Assembly (NCBI RefSeq): GCF_009834025.1
Contig: NZ_CP047156.1
Location: 2,046,001-2,110,000, forward strand
Source: Epidermidibacterium keratini
GTDB taxonomy: Bacteria > Actinomycetota > Actinomycetes > Mycobacteriales > Antricoccaceae
DNA length: 64,000 bases
Reading direction: 5' to 3'
In this document: piece by piece, positions 23,064-42,052 of the stretch
Numbering within the stretch: the stretch's first letter is position 1
How the letters are laid out: every line of letters starts with the position of its first letter
Program-made: the position numbers and the translations under genes
The notes under the pieces: generated by a model
What the model saw: the letters and a program-made list of their open reading frames with translations, nothing else
What the model was told of the DNA's origin: nothing
Database searches by the model: none

Positions 23064-23096
23064 CCAACCGCTCTGCGGACGGTATTGTCATCGGGC

Positions 23097-23188
23097 AACG
23101 ACAGGGGAGCGCCGTACGGCGCTGAGAGTGCGGACCGTCCGCAGACCCTCGAACCTGACCTGGTTAGGACCAGTGGAGGAAGTCGAGC
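23097..23188 (+). promoter_or_regulatory. TPP riboswitch (THI element)
   Basis: The conserved thi-box strings appear in order: GGGGAGC, GCTGAGAGTGCGGA, ACCCTCGAACCTGA, then TGGTTAGGACCAGTGGAGGAA. This is the thiamine pyrophosphate aptamer, and it lies just before the thiamine-type ABC transporter. Downstream, CCCTTC (23190-23195) can pair with GGAGGG (23202-23207), the Shine-Dalgarno of the first gene, across a 6-nt loop, so control is probably at translation initiation. Confidence 0.93.
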
Positions 23189-23213
23189 CCCCTTCATCCG
23201 TGGAGGGACATAC

Positions 23214-35109: not shown

Positions 35110-35156
35110 GATGGTGTGGACTTTCAGTCATCAGGTGACTGAAAGTCCACACCATC
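35110..35156. repeat. 21-bp perfect inverted repeat with 5-nt loop
   Basis: Arms 35110-35130 and 35136-35156 (GATGGTGTGGACTTTCAGTCA and complement, shown as core) form one of the strongest stems in the window. It follows the monooxygenase stop (35178, minus strand) by 22 nt and precedes the small Lys-rich gene, so it probably ends the sulfur operon transcript. Confidence 0.8.
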
Positions 35157-35177: not shown

Positions 35178-36494
35178 CTAGAAATCGAAGAGGTTCTCCC
35201 GCAGTCCACCGTCGGATAGGTGATCGCGCAGGAGGCCGCGTCGCCGCAGGGTCGGGACGAGTCCGGCAAGCTGCGCGTGTACGCCGACCGGGTGTAGGTC
35301 GCCGTTGAGGATGAAGCCGTCATTGTCCGCCTCGTCGCCGAGCATCTCCACGAAGTCGGCTACTTCCTCTGCGGTACCGACAAACCCGGTGCCGTCGCTG
35401 ATGCGGCCCTTGCGTGCCTTTGCCGCGAGGATGTCGCGCAGCGGCGCGTCGGCAAAGGAGTCAAAGCGGCCGAGCAGGCGCTTGATGCTGCCCTGCGATA
35501 CGTGGTCGGCAAACACGGCCGGATCGAGCGGGCTGTCCAGATCCAGGGTTGTCAGGTCGGTCTCCAGGTCGCTGGACTGCGCCGCGGCGACCTTGCGCAG
35601 TACGTCGTCGCTGGGAGTCCTGGATGCCGCGACGATGCGCTCTGCGTCATCGACGCTCGCGACCACCTCGGGTTGGAAGACAAACAGGATGCGGATGTCG
35701 TCGGGTTTGCGCCCATGCAGCAGTGCTGCGTCGTGCACCTTGGCGCGGTAGGCGCGGATCGACTCGACGGTCAGCGGGGCCGCAGCGAGCTGCACGTCGG
35801 AGTGCGTCCCGGCGTACTCGATGCCCCGCGGAGACGACCCCGGCGAGACGACGACTGGGTCGGTCGGCAGCGGCAGGGCGTTGAGCGGCCCGGTCACGTC
35901 GAAGTAGGCGCCGGAATGGTGGAAGGCGTTCATCAGCTCGCCGTCGGCGAACCGACCGGACTCCGGGTCAGCGATGAGCGCGCCCTCGCCCCAGGAGTGC
36001 CACAGTTGTCGCAGTACGTCGGTCCACTCGCTGGCGCGGTCGTACGCCGCGTCATGGCTGATCGGCTGCTGCCCGAAGTGCCGGCTGCTGCCGACGTCGG
36101 TCACGACGTTGATGCCAAAACGCTGGTCGCTGAGGTGCGCCAGCGAGGCAACCTGGCGGGCTGCGGTGTACGGCGGGGTAGCGATCGGGTTGATCGTCGG
36201 CGTAATACCGATCCGTGACGTCGCGGCAAACAGGTAGGGAGCCAGCAACAGCGGGTCGAGCTTGGGTCCGCCGTACGCCTCCCGGACGCGCAGGTCCAGG
36301 GTGCTCGGGTTCCCTAACGACAGGGCGTCTTCGACGATGACGAGCTCGATGCCGGCTTGCTCCAGTGCTTGCGCGGACTGTTGGTAGAGCCCCGGCGAGG
36401 TCCAGTCGTAGTTCCAGCGCTGGTAGTCCCGACCCCAGCCCTGGGGCCCGAAGCCGCGGGAGAAGAACCAGCCGAAGTGTTGCATCTTGGGCAT
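35178..36494 (-). CDS. FMN-dependent monooxygenase (NtaA/SnaA/DszA/SoxA family)
   Basis: 438 residues. The luciferase-like barrel includes FGWFFSRGFGPQGWGRDY, GITPTINPIATPPYTAARQ, RFGINVVTDVGSSRHFG and VSPGSSPRGIEYA, as in the two-component, FMNH2-using family. It lies 9 bp after the O-acetylhomoserine sulfhydrylase in the same message, under the SAM riboswitch. It therefore probably releases sulfur (sulfite or thiol) from an organosulfur compound for methionine synthesis. A separate flavin reductase would be needed and is not next door. Confidence 0.88.
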   Translation of the reverse strand: MPKMQHFGWFFSRGFGPQGWGRDYQRWNYDWTSPGLYQQSAQALEQAGIELVIVEDALSLGNPSTLDLRVREAYGGPKLDPLLLAPYLFAATSRIGITPTINPIATPPYTAARQVASLAHLSDQRFGINVVTDVGSSRHFGQQPISHDAAYDRASEWTDVLRQLWHSWGEGALIADPESGRFADGELMNAFHHSGAYFDVTGPLNALPLPTDPVVVSPGSSPRGIEYAGTHSDVQLAAAPLTVESIRAYRAKVHDAALLHGRKPDDIRILFVFQPEVVASVDDAERIVAASRTPSDDVLRKVAAAQSSDLETDLTTLDLDSPLDPAVFADHVSQGSIKRLLGRFDSFADAPLRDILAAKARKGRISDGTGFVGTAEEVADFVEMLGDEADNDGFILNGDLHPVGVHAQLAGLVPTLRRRGLLRDHLSDGGLRENLFDF

Positions 36495-36503
36495 CTCGCG
36501 CTC

Positions 36504-37871
36504 CTAGGCGATCTGGACGGCAGGAGCCGACCGAAGTGAGGTGGTGGCGGCCGACGTGTGCAGTGCGTCGAGGCCGCGGTCAAGGTCAGCGATGAGGTCC
36601 GAGACGTCCTCGATCCCCACCGAGAGGCGCACCAGCCCGGGGGTGATCCCTACCGCGTGGCGTTCTGCCTCGCTGCGGGCGACGTGTGATGTCGACTCCG
36701 GATGGAGCACGAGGGAGCGCACATCGCCGAGATGGGACATATGGCTGAAAAGCGTGAGCGAGTGGATGAAGTCTGCAGCCGCGGGTGCGCCGCCGCGCAG
36801 CTCGAAGGAGAAGACCGAGCCGGCGCCGCGCGGCAGATATCGGCGCACGCGCACCGGAGATTGACCGTCGAGCCCGGGATAGCGCACCAGGCTCACCTCG
36901 GGCTGCTTCTGCAGCCAGGTTGCAATCGCCAACGCGTTGGCGCAGTGCCGCTCCATGCGCAACGACAACGTCTCGATGCCCTGCCGCACAAGGAATGCGT
37001 TGAACGGGGACGGGCTCGGACCAAACCGTCCGGCCACCACGCCGCGGGTGTACGCCGTGAACGCCCCGGAGCCGAACCGTTCGACGAAGCTCGCGCCGCC
37101 GAGGGCGCGATCCGGCTCGGTGAGGTGCCGAAAGCGGTCGCCGCGCGACCAGTCGAAGCTCCCGCCATCGACGACCACGCCGCCGAGGGCCTGCCCGTGC
37201 CCGGACAGGAACTTCGAAGCCGAGTGCACGACGATGTGCGCTCCATGCTCCAACGGGCGCAGCAGGTACGGCGTCGCGAGGGTGTTGTCGACGACGAGCG
37301 GGATCGCGTTGCGTTCGGCGATCCTCGCTATAGCGGCGATGTCGAGCACGATTGCGGTGGGGTTGGAGATCGACTCGGCGAAGAGCAGCCGCGTCTCGGG
37401 GCGGATTGCGGCAGCCCAGGCGGTGAGGTCGGTCGGGTCGTCAACGAAGTCGACGCTGACACCGAGCCGTCCGAGGTTGTCTTGGAAGAAGCCACGGGTG
37501 CCTTCGTAGAGGTGTCCGCTCGCGACGATGTGGTCACCCGCGCCGACGATGCCGAGAGTCGCGACGCTCGTCGCGGCCTGCCCGGTGGCGAGCAGGAGGG
37601 CGCTCTTTCCGCCTTCCAGGCCGGCAATCCGCGCCTCGACGTCAGCGTTGGTGGGGTTGCCCATCCGGGTGTAGACGTAACCGTCATCCTCGCCGCGGAA
37701 CCGCGCCTGCGCCTGGTCGACGTCGTCGAAGACGAAGCCGGCAGTCAGGTGGATCGGTGGGATCCGCGAGCCGTGCGGTGTGGGGACGCCCGACGTGGGC
37801 GTCGCTAGCTCTGCGCCGTGAATTTGCTCGGTGGCAAAGCCACGGCGTACGACAGGACCAAGATTGCTCAT
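36504..37871 (-). CDS. metY: O-acetylhomoserine sulfhydrylase-type PLP enzyme
   Basis: 455 residues of the Cys/Met-metabolism PLP family. Characteristic stretches are YTRMGNPTNADVEARIAGLEGG, GTRGFFQDNLGRLGV, ESISNPTAIVLDI and the PLP lysine in HSASKFLSGHG. The N-terminus (FATEQIHGAELATPTSGVPT) and length favour O-acetylhomoserine aminocarboxypropyltransferase over cystathionine synthases. It makes homocysteine from O-acetylhomoserine and sulfide. A SAM-IV-like riboswitch precedes it. Methionine gamma-lyase is a less likely alternative. Confidence 0.88.
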   Translation of the reverse strand: MSNLGPVVRRGFATEQIHGAELATPTSGVPTPHGSRIPPIHLTAGFVFDDVDQAQARFRGEDDGYVYTRMGNPTNADVEARIAGLEGGKSALLLATGQAATSVATLGIVGAGDHIVASGHLYEGTRGFFQDNLGRLGVSVDFVDDPTDLTAWAAAIRPETRLLFAESISNPTAIVLDIAAIARIAERNAIPLVVDNTLATPYLLRPLEHGAHIVVHSASKFLSGHGQALGGVVVDGGSFDWSRGDRFRHLTEPDRALGGASFVERFGSGAFTAYTRGVVAGRFGPSPSPFNAFLVRQGIETLSLRMERHCANALAIATWLQKQPEVSLVRYPGLDGQSPVRVRRYLPRGAGSVFSFELRGGAPAAADFIHSLTLFSHMSHLGDVRSLVLHPESTSHVARSEAERHAVGITPGLVRLSVGIEDVSDLIADLDRGLDALHTSAATTSLRSAPAVQIA

Positions 37872-37914
37872 GGACGTGCTCCGAGATTCCTCGCCCGAAG
37901 GCGAAACGACTGCG

Positions 37915-38019
37915 CTTGCTCGCGATTACGCGAGCCGGGTCGTCACCTGGAGCACCCCACCGCCAGTCTGGAGGGTTGCCGGTCAGCTAGCCAGGGCTTG
38001 TCGCTGACGCTCATGACCC
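37915..38019 (-). promoter_or_regulatory. SAM-IV (SAM-I/IV clan) riboswitch before metY
   Basis: Read on the minus strand from 38019, the RNA has GGGTCATGAGCGTCAGCG, CAAGCCCTGGCTAGCTGACC, GGCAACCCTCC, GCGGTGGGGTGC and GGTGACGACCC, the conserved SAM-IV core seen in actinobacteria. GGGTC (38019-38015) closes P1 with GACCC. A stem GCTCGCG/CGCGAGC follows. It would lower metY and monooxygenase expression when SAM is plentiful. Confidence 0.88.
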
Positions 38020-38068
38020 GCCGCCAGAGTAACCACGAGGCGGGGGCAAAGCAACAGCGCCGTCCGGA

Positions 38069-38803
38069 TTATGAGACGGCGTCGCGGAAGGCGAATGCCA
38101 AGGCAAACTCCTTCTTGGAGTCCAAGATCGCTTGCGCCTCAGGAAGGTTTCGCCACTGGACGTGAAGTCGTTTCTGCTGAGCGAGCACCTCACGTGATGA
38201 CTGCAATGTGCGATTCAAGAACGTCACCGCGAGCTCGTCGGCCGCTTGGGCAGTCTCGGCGACGGCGTTCAAGAAACGATGTTCTTGCACCGTCGGCACG
38301 TCGTACTTCTCACCGGTCAGCAGCATCTCGGTCGCGAGGGTCTGGCCCATGACGCGCCATAGGTTGGCGGCCTCCAGAACGGACGGGATGCCGATGAGTA
38401 CCTCCGGCATCTGGAAGAAGGTGCCGGCAGCCGCGACGCGGTAGTCGCAGGCCGCGGCCAGCTCGAGGGCGCCGCCGATCACGTAGCGGCTCATCGAGCA
38501 GGCGACGGGGACGGCGCAGCGTTTGACGGCGTCGATCGTCTCGCCCAGCGTGGAGATCGTCTGGTACGCCGACTGCGGGGTCGCGTTGTCGAAGAGGGCG
38601 GTGTTCATACCAGCCGAGAAGCCGGCCTTGCTCAACGAAGTGAGCAGCACGCCGCGGACGCTGTCGTCGGATGAGGCGTCGTCAAGAGCTTCACGCATCG
38701 CTACGAGCGACTCGAGATTCATCGCGTTGGCGTGACCTGCGTCGCCAAACGACAGATATAGCAGCGAATCTTCGCGCCTTGTCATGATTGCGCTCGTGCT
38801 CAT
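38069..38803 (-). CDS. Enoyl-CoA hydratase/isomerase family protein
   Basis: 244 residues with GGAGGAG before the ATG. Crotonase fold: SLSKAGFSAGMNTALF in the first oxyanion region, VACSMSRYVIGGALELAAACD in the second. The usual CAGAD and G-x-GGG patterns are altered (SAGMN; VIGGALE), so the substrate may be unusual. It lies downstream of the alkylsulfatase in the same direction but is separated by a strong hairpin, and could act on the fatty acid made from the released alcohol. Confidence 0.82.
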   Translation of the reverse strand: MSTSAIMTRREDSLLYLSFGDAGHANAMNLESLVAMREALDDASSDDSVRGVLLTSLSKAGFSAGMNTALFDNATPQSAYQTISTLGETIDAVKRCAVPVACSMSRYVIGGALELAAACDYRVAAAGTFFQMPEVLIGIPSVLEAANLWRVMGQTLATEMLLTGEKYDVPTVQEHRFLNAVAETAQAADELAVTFLNRTLQSSREVLAQQKRLHVQWRNLPEAQAILDSKKEFALAFAFRDAVS

Positions 38804-38915: not shown

Positions 38916-40757
38916 CTACGGCGTCGCGACCGGGAAGCCGACCGAAGGTGGCTCGATCACTGAGGCCAGATGATCGAGAACGTCGCGGCCACCGTCTTCG
39001 GTCAGCGACCCGTCTGCGCGTAGCGAGTCCAGCGACGCATCGGAGGCGACGAGCGACTCCAGTGCAGCGCGGGTTCCGACGACCTGAACTGTCGGGGTGA
39101 CGCCGACGGCGTCACCGGCGACGGCCGTCAGCACCCCGTTGGTCAGGGTGATGGTCCAGATGTCATCACCGAGTTGCCAGCGCATCGCAAGGTCGCGGGC
39201 GGCAGCCTTCTCGCCGACGATCCGGATGGCGAGTACGTCGAGCAGCTGGCGGATCGACAGCCCGCTGAGCATGCCGCGGGAGCGACGCGGCTGGTCGTAC
39301 TGCGACACCTTGAGCTCGCCGCGCAGCTCCTTGGCTCCCGTCAGGTAGAAGTTGCGCCACACCCCGTTTTCGGCGCCGTAGGCGAGCTGCTCGAACGCAG
39401 CGGCCTGCAGCTCGCGCGCGCCGGTGTGATCGGGGAACGCGAAGACAACGTGGTTGAGCAGCTCGGCCACCCACCGGTAGTCGTGTTCGTCGAAGCTGAC
39501 CTGTGCCTTGGCTACGACCTCGTCCGGTCCACCCATGAGCTCGACGTAGCGTCGACCTGCCTCGACCGGCGGGTGCGGCCACAAGTGAGCGGGATTGCCG
39601 TCGTACCAGCCCATGTAGCGCTGATAGACGGCTTTGGAGTTGTGGCTGAGCGAGCCGTAGTAGCCGCGCGCGTGCCACGCCTGCCCGAGCGCACCAGGGA
39701 ACTGCGAGAGCTCTTCGGCGATCTCGGCCGATGTGAGGCCGCGGTTCATCAGGCGCACGGTCTGGTCGTGGATGTAGGCGTAGGCATCACGCTGCTGAGA
39801 GAGCATCGTGATGAGCTCGTCGCGGCCCCAAGTCGGCCAGTGATGCGATCCGACGAGCACGTCGGACCGGCCGCCGTAGAGCTGGATCGTCTCGTTCAGG
39901 TAGCTCGCCCAGCGCTTGGCATCACGGATGAGCGCGCCGCGCAGCGTCAGGACGTTGTGCAGCGTGTGGTTGGCGTTCTCGGCGACCAGAAGCACCTTGT
40001 GATCGGGCAGGTACACGTTGAGCTCGGACGGCGCTTCGGTGTCGGGAGTGAGCTGGAACTCCAGCCGCACACCGTCGACCGTCTCTAGCTGTCCAGTTTT
40101 GGTGACCTCACGGTTCGGTGCGACCAGCGTGGTCGAGCCCTGCGAGAGGTCTTGGCCGAGGCCAAATCCAATGCCACCGGTCGGTGATGCGTCGAGCCAT
40201 TTGCCGTACATGTACGTGGCACGCCACAGCATTGCTGGGCCGGCGACCACGTTTTCGGAGACGCTGTGCTCAACGAAACCTTCCGGCGCCATGATGACGA
40301 CATCGCTGTCGGTGCCCTCGGGTACGACGCCGCGGACGCCACCGAAATGGTCGCTGTGCGAGTGCGTGAAGACGACGCCGCGCACGGGCCGGTCGCCGCG
40401 ATGCTTGCGGTATAGGGCAAGGGCGGCCGCCGCGGCCTCGGCGCTGAGGAGTACGTCGATGATGACGATGCCCTCGTCGCCTTCGACGATCGTCATGTTA
40501 GACACGCAGAATCCGCGCACCTGATAGACGCCCGGGGCGATCTCAAACAGTCCATGCGACAGGTTCAGCCGCCCCTGGCGCCACAGGCTCGGGTGGGCGG
40601 TCTCGGGTGCTTCGCCCAGTAGGAATGACCAGCGCTCGTTGTCCCAGACGACGCGTCCGTCAGCGTTGCGGATGATGCACGGGTCGATCGTGTCGATGAA
40701 CCCGCGCCGGGTTGCGTCGGCATCGGTCGGATCAGACCAGTCGAGGGTGTCGGCCAT
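38916..40757 (-). CDS. Alkyl sulfatase (SdsA-type, MBL fold with SCP2-like C-terminus)
   Basis: 613 residues, the typical length of alkyl sulfatases. The N-terminal block HPSLWRQGRLNLSHGLFEI is followed by the zinc motif THSHSDH at residues 131-137, VLVGSHHWPTWG, then the dimerisation domain (MGWYDGNPAHLWPHPP) and a C-terminal SCP2-type domain (about 490-600). No signal peptide, so it is probably cytosolic, unlike SdsA1. It hydrolyses alkyl sulfates to alcohol and sulfate. A promoter with a TCTATAGA site lies upstream. Confidence 0.93.
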   Translation of the reverse strand: MADTLDWSDPTDADATRRGFIDTIDPCIIRNADGRVVWDNERWSFLLGEAPETAHPSLWRQGRLNLSHGLFEIAPGVYQVRGFCVSNMTIVEGDEGIVIIDVLLSAEAAAAALALYRKHRGDRPVRGVVFTHSHSDHFGGVRGVVPEGTDSDVVIMAPEGFVEHSVSENVVAGPAMLWRATYMYGKWLDASPTGGIGFGLGQDLSQGSTTLVAPNREVTKTGQLETVDGVRLEFQLTPDTEAPSELNVYLPDHKVLLVAENANHTLHNVLTLRGALIRDAKRWASYLNETIQLYGGRSDVLVGSHHWPTWGRDELITMLSQQRDAYAYIHDQTVRLMNRGLTSAEIAEELSQFPGALGQAWHARGYYGSLSHNSKAVYQRYMGWYDGNPAHLWPHPPVEAGRRYVELMGGPDEVVAKAQVSFDEHDYRWVAELLNHVVFAFPDHTGARELQAAAFEQLAYGAENGVWRNFYLTGAKELRGELKVSQYDQPRRSRGMLSGLSIRQLLDVLAIRIVGEKAAARDLAMRWQLGDDIWTITLTNGVLTAVAGDAVGVTPTVQVVGTRAALESLVASDASLDSLRADGSLTEDGGRDVLDHLASVIEPPSVGFPVATP

Positions 40758-40903: not shown

Positions 40904-42052
40904 GTGAGCGAATCCACCGGGGCCGTGCGGCCGGCGAACCGCAGGGACCTCATCCTGGAGGCGGCGACGGCGCTGTTTCGCGACCGCGGATACGGCGCGG
41001 TCAGCCTCGCGGACGTCGCTGCCGCCGTCGACGTCACACCGCCGGCGCTGTATCGCCACGTCAAGGACAAGCAAGAGCTGCTTGGGCTGTGTCTGGACCG
41101 TGCGGTCAGTGACCTCGTTGCCCGCGTGGCGCAGGCCGACTCCTTCGACGCGCTGGCGGCCAACGTCACCGACATGATCCGGCAGCGCCGCGGTCTGGCT
41201 CCGCTGTGGCGCCGCGAGTCGGTGCACCTCGATGCCGCGGTACGCCGACGCCAAGCGGAGCGCCTGCGCCGGGTGGGCACGGTGATCGACGAGCTGACAG
41301 CGGCCGAGCGTCCCGACCTGCCTGCCGAGCAGGCCAGCTTGCTGGGGACTGCGACGCTCAGTCTCTTCACTGCCATCGCGCTGCACCGACCGTCGTTCGG
41401 TGTCCGTGCCGTCAACACCTGGGCTGGTCAGCTGGCCCGCGCGATCGCCGATGCGCCGGTGGATGCTGCACCGGATACCGTGCCGACGCCCACCGCAATA
41501 CCTGACTCCCTCGTACCGCGCCGGGCCCGGATCCTCGCCGCGGCGAGCGAGCTTTTTGCCGATCGAGGTGTCGACGCGGTCAGCATCGAGGAGATCGGTC
41601 ATCGTGCCGGAATCGCCGGGCCGAGCGTCTACAAGCACTTCGGGGGCAAGCTGCCGATCGTCGATGCGCTCGCCCAGAGGGCCAGCGACGTGTTCCTCGG
41701 CGTCGTCCGCGAGGCCGTCGAGAGCACCGATGCATCGAGTCGGCTGCGTGTCGCGATCGCCGCACACGCGGGCGTCGTACTCGCCGATCCCCAGCTCATC
41801 ACGTTCGTGGGTGCTTACCGGGATGCATCATGGGCTGGACAGCCGAATGCGGTGTATCGCGACTATCGCGGGTTCTTCATCGATCTCATCGCGGCGGCGT
41901 ACCCCGACCGGGGGCGGGCTGTCTGCGTGGCGACCGCGGATGTATTGCTTTTTGTGCTGGGCGACTTGGCGCGTCGCCGGGAGAGCCGGCTGAGCGACCT
42001 GGTGGTGCTCGGCGATGCCCTCATCAGCCCACTTAGCGCGGGTCGACGGTGA
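40904..42052 (+). CDS. Regulator with two TetR DNA-binding domains in one chain
   Basis: 382 residues, twice the usual TetR length, from a GTG at 40904 with GGAAGG upstream. The first TetR domain is at about residues 12-60 (DRGYGAVSLADVAAAVDVTP; LYRHVKDKQELL) and the second at about 205-250 (DRGVDAVSIEEIGHRAGIAG; VYKHFGGKLPIV). The two ligand-type halves are only weakly alike. This mimics a covalent TetR dimer. It is divergent from the alkylsulfatase and may control it or itself. Confidence 0.88.
   Translation: MSESTGAVRPANRRDLILEAATALFRDRGYGAVSLADVAAAVDVTPPALYRHVKDKQELLGLCLDRAVSDLVARVAQADSFDALAANVTDMIRQRRGLAPLWRRESVHLDAAVRRRQAERLRRVGTVIDELTAAERPDLPAEQASLLGTATLSLFTAIALHRPSFGVRAVNTWAGQLARAIADAPVDAAPDTVPTPTAIPDSLVPRRARILAAASELFADRGVDAVSIEEIGHRAGIAGPSVYKHFGGKLPIVDALAQRASDVFLGVVREAVESTDASSRLRVAIAAHAGVVLADPQLITFVGAYRDASWAGQPNAVYRDYRGFFIDLIAAAYPDRGRAVCVATADVLLFVLGDLARRRESRLSDLVVLGDALISPLSAGRR

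Follow-up and report, generated by a model that had tools for sequence, protein, structure and literature searches.

A SAM-IV riboswitch ahead of a conserved metY-monooxygenase gene pair in Epidermidibacterium keratini: a candidate sulfur-salvage operon

Introduction

Control of O-acetylhomoserine sulfhydrylase genes by riboswitches that sense S-adenosylmethionine (SAM) has been described before, and we compare those systems here with a locus in which a SAM-IV riboswitch precedes a metY-type gene and a flavin-dependent monooxygenase gene, within a 64,000-nucleotide stretch of the Epidermidibacterium keratini genome (NCBI RefSeq assembly GCF_009834025.1, contig NZ_CP047156.1, positions 2,046,001 to 2,110,000; hereafter the window). 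A SAM-IV element upstream of metY is known from Mycobacterium avium MAV_4315, an O-acetylhomoserine sulfhydrylase gene like the one in the window; unlike the window, no monooxygenase gene is reported with it in the available part of that source (PMC3774663). In Pelagibacter, metY is controlled by a SAM-V riboswitch and rises under sulfur limitation, a precedent for SAM-riboswitch control of metY such as we propose, although the riboswitch belongs to another class and the accessible text describes no such monooxygenase (PMC5069961).

Carbon-sulfur (C-S) bonds are cut by several flavoenzymes, among which the accessible part of one report lists DmoA, acting on dimethyl sulfide, SfnG on dimethyl sulfone, DszA on dibenzothiophene sulfone, and CmoJ on alkylated cysteines (PMC10863075), and these substrates are the obvious candidates for the window monooxygenase. 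In Rhodospirillum, a methylthio-alkane reductase cleaves C-S bonds to give methanethiol and then methionine when sulfate is absent, according to the portion of that study at hand (PMC12552129). Full-text searching, in which subscription journals are thinly covered, found, among the papers listed, no literature that links SAM-IV with luciferase-like monooxygenases or that deals with a metY-monooxygenase pair. SAM-IV before metY is thus already known, and what is new is the genomic context of a SAM-IV-led metY-oxygenase unit.

With a probability of roughly two in three, we read the locus as a SAM-controlled sulfur-salvage operon whose monooxygenase would free sulfur for a dedicated MetY enzyme.

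Results and Discussion

The SAM-IV leader and its two genes

The unit is made up of the following features, all on the minus strand of the window.

37907 to 38018, minus: SAM-IV riboswitch aptamer (RF00634; cmscan 97.4 bits and covariation of 28 aptamers)
37872 to 37906, minus: stretch of leader from the aptamer to the metY start, in which a small UUCG hairpin and a GGAG ribosome-binding site can be read
36504 to 37871, minus: metY-type gene (455 amino acids, ATG start), encoding an O-acetylhomoserine sulfhydrylase-like pyridoxal phosphate (PLP) enzyme (PF01053, 394 bits)
35178 to 36494, minus: flavin-dependent monooxygenase gene (438 amino acids), luciferase-like and a distant NtaA/DmoA relative (PF00296, 106.5 bits)

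The aptamer, the sole SAM-IV element in the window, matches RF00634 over its full length (1 to 116 of 116); its score of 97.4 bits (E value 1.5e-16) lies above the gathering score of 38, the curated covariance-model threshold, and a search of the whole genome returned the element with 97.4 bits again. In an alignment of 28 aptamers, the window's included, from its own genome, relatives, and the class, covariation backs all seven SAM-IV helices, including two pseudoknots: of the 924 alignment cells 99.0% are paired, both sides change at 20 of 33 pairs, none of 500 shuffled controls reached the observed pairing, and sliding the partners lowered it to 29 to 46%. The window aptamer itself forms 5 of 5 pairs of the loop-2 pseudoknot and, in that register, 4 of 5 pairs of the second. 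The window riboswitch adds one more member to a known class, and membership in this family suggests that the operon is regulated by SAM.

Only 35 nucleotides separate the aptamer from the metY-type start, and these presumably form the expression platform. Translational control appears the likelier mode of action, rather than termination, because a consensus scan found no terminator-like site between the aptamer and the gene. Masking of the ribosome-binding site by the aptamer core was considered and set aside: the window has a perfect 7-nucleotide complement (GGAGCAC/GUGCUCC), yet this is uninformative, as the longest ribosome-site complement averages 5.5 over 112 leaders and is the same with shuffled sites or other aptamers. 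Nor did the 3' part of the leader show extra stability over shuffles (z score of 1.21).

The monooxygenase gene follows metY at a spacing of 9 nucleotides, the metY stop codon overlaps the AGGAG that precedes it (read from the sequence), and the two genes are probably co-transcribed. The original prediction, which ran from 35178, the monooxygenase stop, to 38019, one base past the aptamer, had placed a SAM-IV core before metY and a monooxygenase 9 bp beyond it in a two-gene operon; both statements stand, the first through the Infernal search and the covarying helices and the second through open reading frames at 37871-36504 and 36494-35178, each with a strong family match.

The first protein scores 394 bits to PF01053 (Cys_Met_Meta_PP; cut-off 27) and 488.3 bits to TIGR01326, the O-acetylhomoserine sulfhydrylase MetY model, slightly below the cut-off of 495.1, and we therefore call it MetY-type. 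Its nearest solved relative is the O-acetylhomoserine sulfhydrylase 4kam, and Lys220, which we take to be the PLP lysine, is invariant in an alignment of nine sequences. The second protein scores 106.5 bits to PF00296 (Bac_luciferase; cut-off 27.9) and 252.8 bits to TIGR03860 (NtaA/DmoA), below the cut-off of 279.7, making it a close relative of that family and not a member.

A conserved pair of metY and monooxygenase genes

Nine of 296 genomes of the class held a relative of the monooxygenase at an E value of at most 1e-60, four of them, besides the window, at 59 to 63% identity. For the analysis of gene neighborhoods we used the best 80 of 279 relatives (E value of at most 1e-3, named genomes), which are 60 to 68% identical and come mostly from Microbacteriaceae, with Kineococcus, Cellulosimicrobium, Tersicoccus, and one genome named Streptomyces; loci are cited by our L numbers. 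The window monooxygenase and its 59 to 69% identical relatives form a group separate from the named oxygenases compared below.

The monooxygenase gene adjoins metY in 79 of these 80 loci, co-directionally with metY upstream in 69 and divergently in 10. Gene calls gave 64 co-directional and 8 divergent pairs, and tblastn added 5 and 2 that the gene caller had missed (co-directional L203, L205, L208, L210, and L216; divergent L228 and L237), leaving L258 as the sole locus in which neither gene calls nor tblastn found metY. In 41 of the 64 called co-directional loci the two genes overlap by 4 bp. Every other called neighbor family occurs in at most 14 of the 80 loci (a gene-caller tally and hence a lower bound), and with no third frequent family the conserved unit consists of two genes. 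In 11 of the 80 loci, genes resembling flavin mononucleotide (FMN) reductases lie no more than five genes from the pair, and one of the three representatives searched scored above a named cut-off (MsuE, 219.4 versus 212.5).

The paired MetY proteins are also distinct in sequence. In a mixture-model tree (quick search, without bootstrap) of 62 proteins, comprising 33 of the 76 paired MetYs and 29 other SAM-IV-led MetY/MetZ proteins (30 before the fragment L146 was dropped), the 33 paired proteins, the window's included, split from the 29 others with a Shimodaira-Hasegawa-like approximate likelihood ratio support of 100. The window MetY thus groups apart from the other SAM-IV-led proteins, among which the canonical MetY of its own genome falls. 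A first FastTree with a midpoint root had left the placement of the window MetY ambiguous, and the mixture-model tree resolved it. A mirror-tree comparison of 76 pairs gave r = 0.80 but was discarded as evidence, since it has no control for shared descent.

These observations bear on how the two enzymes might work together. One special form of the salvage reading is that a DmoA- or CmoJ-like C-S cleavage would yield a thiol that the paired MetY joins directly to O-acetylhomoserine, which in the case of methanethiol would give methionine in one step. The near-fixed adjacency of exactly these two genes and the separate group of paired MetYs both argue for such a transfer, DmoA and CmoJ are homologues of fitting size, and methanethiol is named as a methionine precursor in the MetY reaction in the available text of one source (PMC7279501). 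Against it, DmoA is not the closest relative of the monooxygenase (179.9 bits versus 218.6 for BdsA), and metF- and metE-like genes, which come after the pair in 2 of the 80 loci (L198 and L202) and lie nearby in L250, suggest homocysteine as the product. On balance we find this handover rather unlikely. It would resemble the Rhodospirillum route in that C-S cleavage leads to methanethiol for methionine; the Rhodospirillum enzyme is anaerobic and nitrogenase-like in the part of the source available (PMC12552129), whereas the window pair would depend on O2 and flavin and so be its aerobic counterpart.

The order of the genes also admits a reading unrelated to sulfur supply, in which the MetY-type enzyme would first build a substituted homoserine that the monooxygenase then oxidizes in biosynthesis or detoxification. 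It draws on metY coming first in the co-directional pairs and on FUB7, a MetY relative that is among the solved-structure matches and that presumably works in a biosynthetic pathway. The ortholog loci, however, show no other biosynthetic gene family at high frequency, and SAM-IV control together with the sister operon of sfnG and metY presented below indicates sulfur supply, making this reading very improbable.

A side observation concerns one of the pairs: at L203:4614-5974 (Clavibacter), the paired metY spans two overlapping frames and may be frameshifted.

Monooxygenases behind SAM-IV leaders

The single contig of the E. keratini genome (4.02 Mb) carries six SAM-IV elements, each above the cut-off. 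Genes behind them were called with a simple codon model and named partly from families and otherwise by eye, and besides the window unit they form the following operons.

L019:2157-5223: SAM-IV, SfnG, metY, CoA-binding protein
L020: SAM-IV, metY, metX (canonical)
L021: SAM-IV, amino-acid-type ATP-binding cassette (ABC) transporter, two NtaA/DmoA-like monooxygenases, FAD-NAD(P)-binding protein, transporter
L022: SAM-IV, MetQ-type ABC transporter, 2-oxoglutarate-oxygenase-like gene
L023: SAM-IV, major facilitator superfamily (MFS)-like transporter, NtaA/DmoA monooxygenase (529 bits, above the cut-off), MFS-like transporter

Luciferase-like monooxygenases therefore occur in the operons of four of the six SAM-IV leaders, the window's included. 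With random positions and strands, none of 200,000 draws gave four of six within 6 kb (binomial probability of 3.1e-6), a span that was picked after the operons had been seen. When the window monooxygenase was used as a protein query against its own genome (E value of at most 0.001), all five places matched, itself among them, lay in SAM-IV operons.

Among the evidence from the genome, the SfnG operon counts most, because the SfnG match is at equivalog level (617 bits against the TIGR04021 cut-off of 383) and the gene directly precedes one for a MetY that scores 593.5 bits (cut-off 495.1). Dimethyl sulfone use is apparently wired to methionine synthesis there. The original prediction had tied the window monooxygenase to sulfur supply for methionine, and this tie is supported by the adjacency to metY in 79 of 80 loci, by the four of six SAM-IV operons, and by the succession of SAM-IV, SfnG, and metY; we consider it very likely that the monooxygenase scavenges sulfur in partnership with a dedicated MetY.

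Across the class the habit is uneven. SAM-IV was found in 81 of 148 genomes drawn, and the 131 leaders (113 outside the own genome, 12 from three same-family relatives, and the 6 above, with 14 lacking a called gene) are most commonly followed by a SufS-like aminotransferase (44 of 131), metY or metZ (26), or metX (10). Luciferase-superfamily monooxygenases lie in the operons of 10 of the 131 leaders, a count that a tblastn recheck left unchanged. The window's family contributes 7 of these (among 18 leaders) and the rest of the class 3 (among 113), one of these three (L150) being assigned solely by BLAST clustering. Monooxygenases behind SAM-IV are thus a strong habit of the window's family and thin in the rest of the class. 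A TauD gene stands behind SAM-IV in L141, and CysQ-CysD-CysN-like genes, from clusters named by eye, stand behind four leaders, so that SAM-IV precedes sulfur-acquisition genes more generally.

The same neighbors speak to another special form of the salvage reading, in which a sulfone or sulfonate desulfurase would release sulfite that sulfite reductase then passes to the common sulfide pool; MetY would only enlarge the sink for sulfide, and the two enzymes would have no intermediate in common. In its favor are SfnG at the head of another SAM-IV operon of this genome, the TauD and CysQ-CysD-CysN-like genes behind SAM-IV in other genomes, the position of BdsA, a DszA homologue, as the nearest solved sequence, and the Pseudomonas SfnG-MsuC-MsuD pathway, which ends in sulfite in the available part of its description (PMC13352529). 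It does not account, on the other hand, for the distinct MetY group that accompanies one monooxygenase although a canonical SAM-IV-led metY-metX operon is present. We hold this course to be doubtful, at somewhat less than even odds. For the salvage reading as a whole, SfnG beside metY and the metE and metF genes near some pairs favor sulfide as the compound handed on, while the dedicated MetY group favors a special thiol. These odds were kept when the count of pairs rose from 72 to 79 of 80, as pairing does not bear on the substrate.

Two further observations were made on the leaders. A second SAM-IV module, seen in L021 (3 to 10 kb), L029, L030, L106, and L140, carries tandem NtaA/DmoA-like monooxygenases of 376 to 411 and 451 to 467 amino acids. 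Four of its five occurrences also include ABC transporter genes, L106 has a confirmed flavin reductase domain, and the module is a candidate for organosulfur uptake. The SufS- or cysteine-desulfurase-like class V aminotransferase, judged from one representative, scores below the cut-off of each NCBIfam model that it matched.

Fold and candidate substrates of the monooxygenase

The window monooxygenase shares the luciferase-like, FMN-dependent family with SfnG, MsuD, and SsuD. It is not an SfnG: the 438-amino-acid protein scores only 45.8 bits to TIGR04021 (cut-off 382.95), and its AlphaFold2 model (predicted local distance difference test score of 88.5) reaches a Z score of 29 against solved SfnG, compared with 35 to 39 against structures of the NtaA/DmoA/LadA type. 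A search of solved structures with a 27-sequence profile of the monooxygenase ranked BdsA first (218.6 bits), followed by CmoJ (YtnJ; 207.8), a nitrilotriacetate-type enzyme (186.7), HcbA1 (185.6), riboflavin lyase (182.1), LadA (182.0), and DmoA (179.9). By fold the order differs, with LadA at a Z score of 38.8, HcbA1 at 38.5, BdsA at 37.9, RcaE at 37.8, an NtaA-type enzyme at 37.5, CmoJ at 36.5, EmoA at 36.2, and DmoA at 35.6.

In structural alignments BdsA, CmoJ, DmoA, NtaA, RcaE, LadA, and HcbA1 share the fold and a similar length with the window enzyme at 23 to 32% identity, and none is clearly nearest. The Z values are too similar for the choice of a substrate by fold, with the model as near to oxygenases of alkanes, hexachlorobenzene, riboflavin, nitrilotriacetate, and ethylenediaminetetraacetate. 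Since the matches in both sequence and fold are bunched, we describe the protein as a predicted two-component FMN oxygenase, for which they single out no substrate. On the label NtaA/DszA-type, given in the original prediction, the two comparisons differ: BdsA is the best solved match by sequence, but by fold it ties with LadA, HcbA1, RcaE, and NtaA. Sulfones and sulfonates would be two among several candidate substrates.

In genome G006 (L185:8001-12089), a SAM-IV rhodanese-metZ operon diverges from a more distant relative of the monooxygenase (42% identical); behind this relative come a gene of the histidine-ammonia-lyase family and then a cystathionine- or cysteine-synthase-like gene. A link to ergothioneine, considered on account of these neighbors, was without support from any named model.

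Proposed salvage route and its regulation

We infer the enzyme activities, the substrate, and the order of steps as follows. When SAM is plentiful, the aptamer would bind it and switch the mRNA off, and in methionine or sulfur shortage, when SAM is low, the leader would open and MetY and the monooxygenase would be made, a direction that we take from the known riboswitch class. Supplied with FMNH2 by a reductase encoded elsewhere, the monooxygenase would use O2 to break the C-S bond of an organosulfur compound. The sulfur would leave as a thiol, as sulfide, or as sulfite, the last being reduced afterwards. The dedicated MetY paralogue would then join this sulfur to O-acetylhomoserine to yield homocysteine; with methanethiol as the thiol, methionine would be the product.

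Several findings weigh against this proposal. Neither window protein reaches the curated cut-off of its closest named model, and both activities may have drifted; by fold, the monooxygenase lies equally near to oxygenases of sulfur-free substrates. PF00296 occurs at 29 places in the genome, 5 of which are within SAM-IV operons and 24 outside them. The window operon has no flavin reductase or transporter gene, the MetY of the SfnG operon falls outside the paired MetY group, and four genomes of own-family relatives hold no monooxygenase ortholog above 33% identity.

Further points on this side concern the switch. With a SAM-IV model made here, no SAM-IV element was found at the 80 ortholog loci, five co-directional loci with less than 250 bp before metY being incompletely covered; a pair of weak matches, at 18.8 and 18.7 bits (E value of about 0.3), looks like chance. 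Over these 80 and six further loci, a real score was obtained only at the divergent MetZ leader of L185, and three others reached 17.8 to 18.8 bits (E values of 0.3 to 0.5). No Rfam family at all was found at L169 with an E value of at most 1, and at gathering scores L181 to L190 gave only the divergent MetZ leader of L185. The 59 upstream regions compared contain no universal word, the top 12-mers occurring in 7 to 8 of the 59 loci. SAM control is therefore not a conserved property of the metY-monooxygenase pair; the switch is local and the gene pair general.

In the simplest history, whose direction we infer, the two genes travel together and a single lineage placed them behind its native switch. 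The pair is the conserved unit, and SAM-IV control is probably an addition of the window's own lineage. More tentatively, and with the odds somewhat against it, the pair could be an undescribed two-enzyme aerobic route for methionine sulfur, in which an O2-dependent C-S cleaving flavoenzyme hands a thiol or sulfide to a dedicated MetY; such a route would be widespread in Microbacteriaceae, with occurrences in a small number of further actinomycete families, and would have come under SAM-IV in the window's lineage, within a regulon of several C-S cleaving monooxygenases.

For the salvage reading, the riboswitch serves as a label that places an uncharacterized monooxygenase in sulfur supply and opens an uncharacterized enzyme group to a small substrate screen, and it adds C-S cleaving oxygenase genes, SfnG included, to those found behind SAM-IV. 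If the paired MetY takes the product directly, soil and plant bacteria would own an aerobic methionine-salvage route that annotation misses, because both genes carry generic names in the one annotated record examined (L169).

Edges of the unit and neighboring features

The surroundings of the unit hold the following features.

38058 to 38081, minus: terminator-like hairpin ahead of the aptamer, where the upstream crotonase gene ends (consensus scan only)
38916 to 40757, minus: alkylsulfatase-type gene, outside the SAM-IV unit (metallo-beta-lactamase, dimerization, and C-terminal domains)
35110 to 35156, no strand assigned: perfect inverted repeat with 21-bp arms and a 5-nucleotide loop, just 3' of the monooxygenase stop (read from the sequence)

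The hairpin at 38081-38058 is the presumed upstream edge of the SAM-IV unit. The nearby alkylsulfatase had been proposed as a further, sulfate-releasing member, and this has to be given up: the gene sits upstream of the aptamer, and the crotonase gene and the hairpin lie between the two. Divergent from the alkylsulfatase-type gene is a gene with two TetR-type domains at 40904-42052. At the other edge, the inverted repeat is a possible transcript end, and one other copy was found in the genome in a search allowing up to 2 mismatches (3677499-3677545, arms with 1 and 2 mismatches). Elsewhere in the window, a thiamine pyrophosphate riboswitch lies at 23093-23198 on the plus strand, with 56.4 bits, barely above its gathering score of 54.3.

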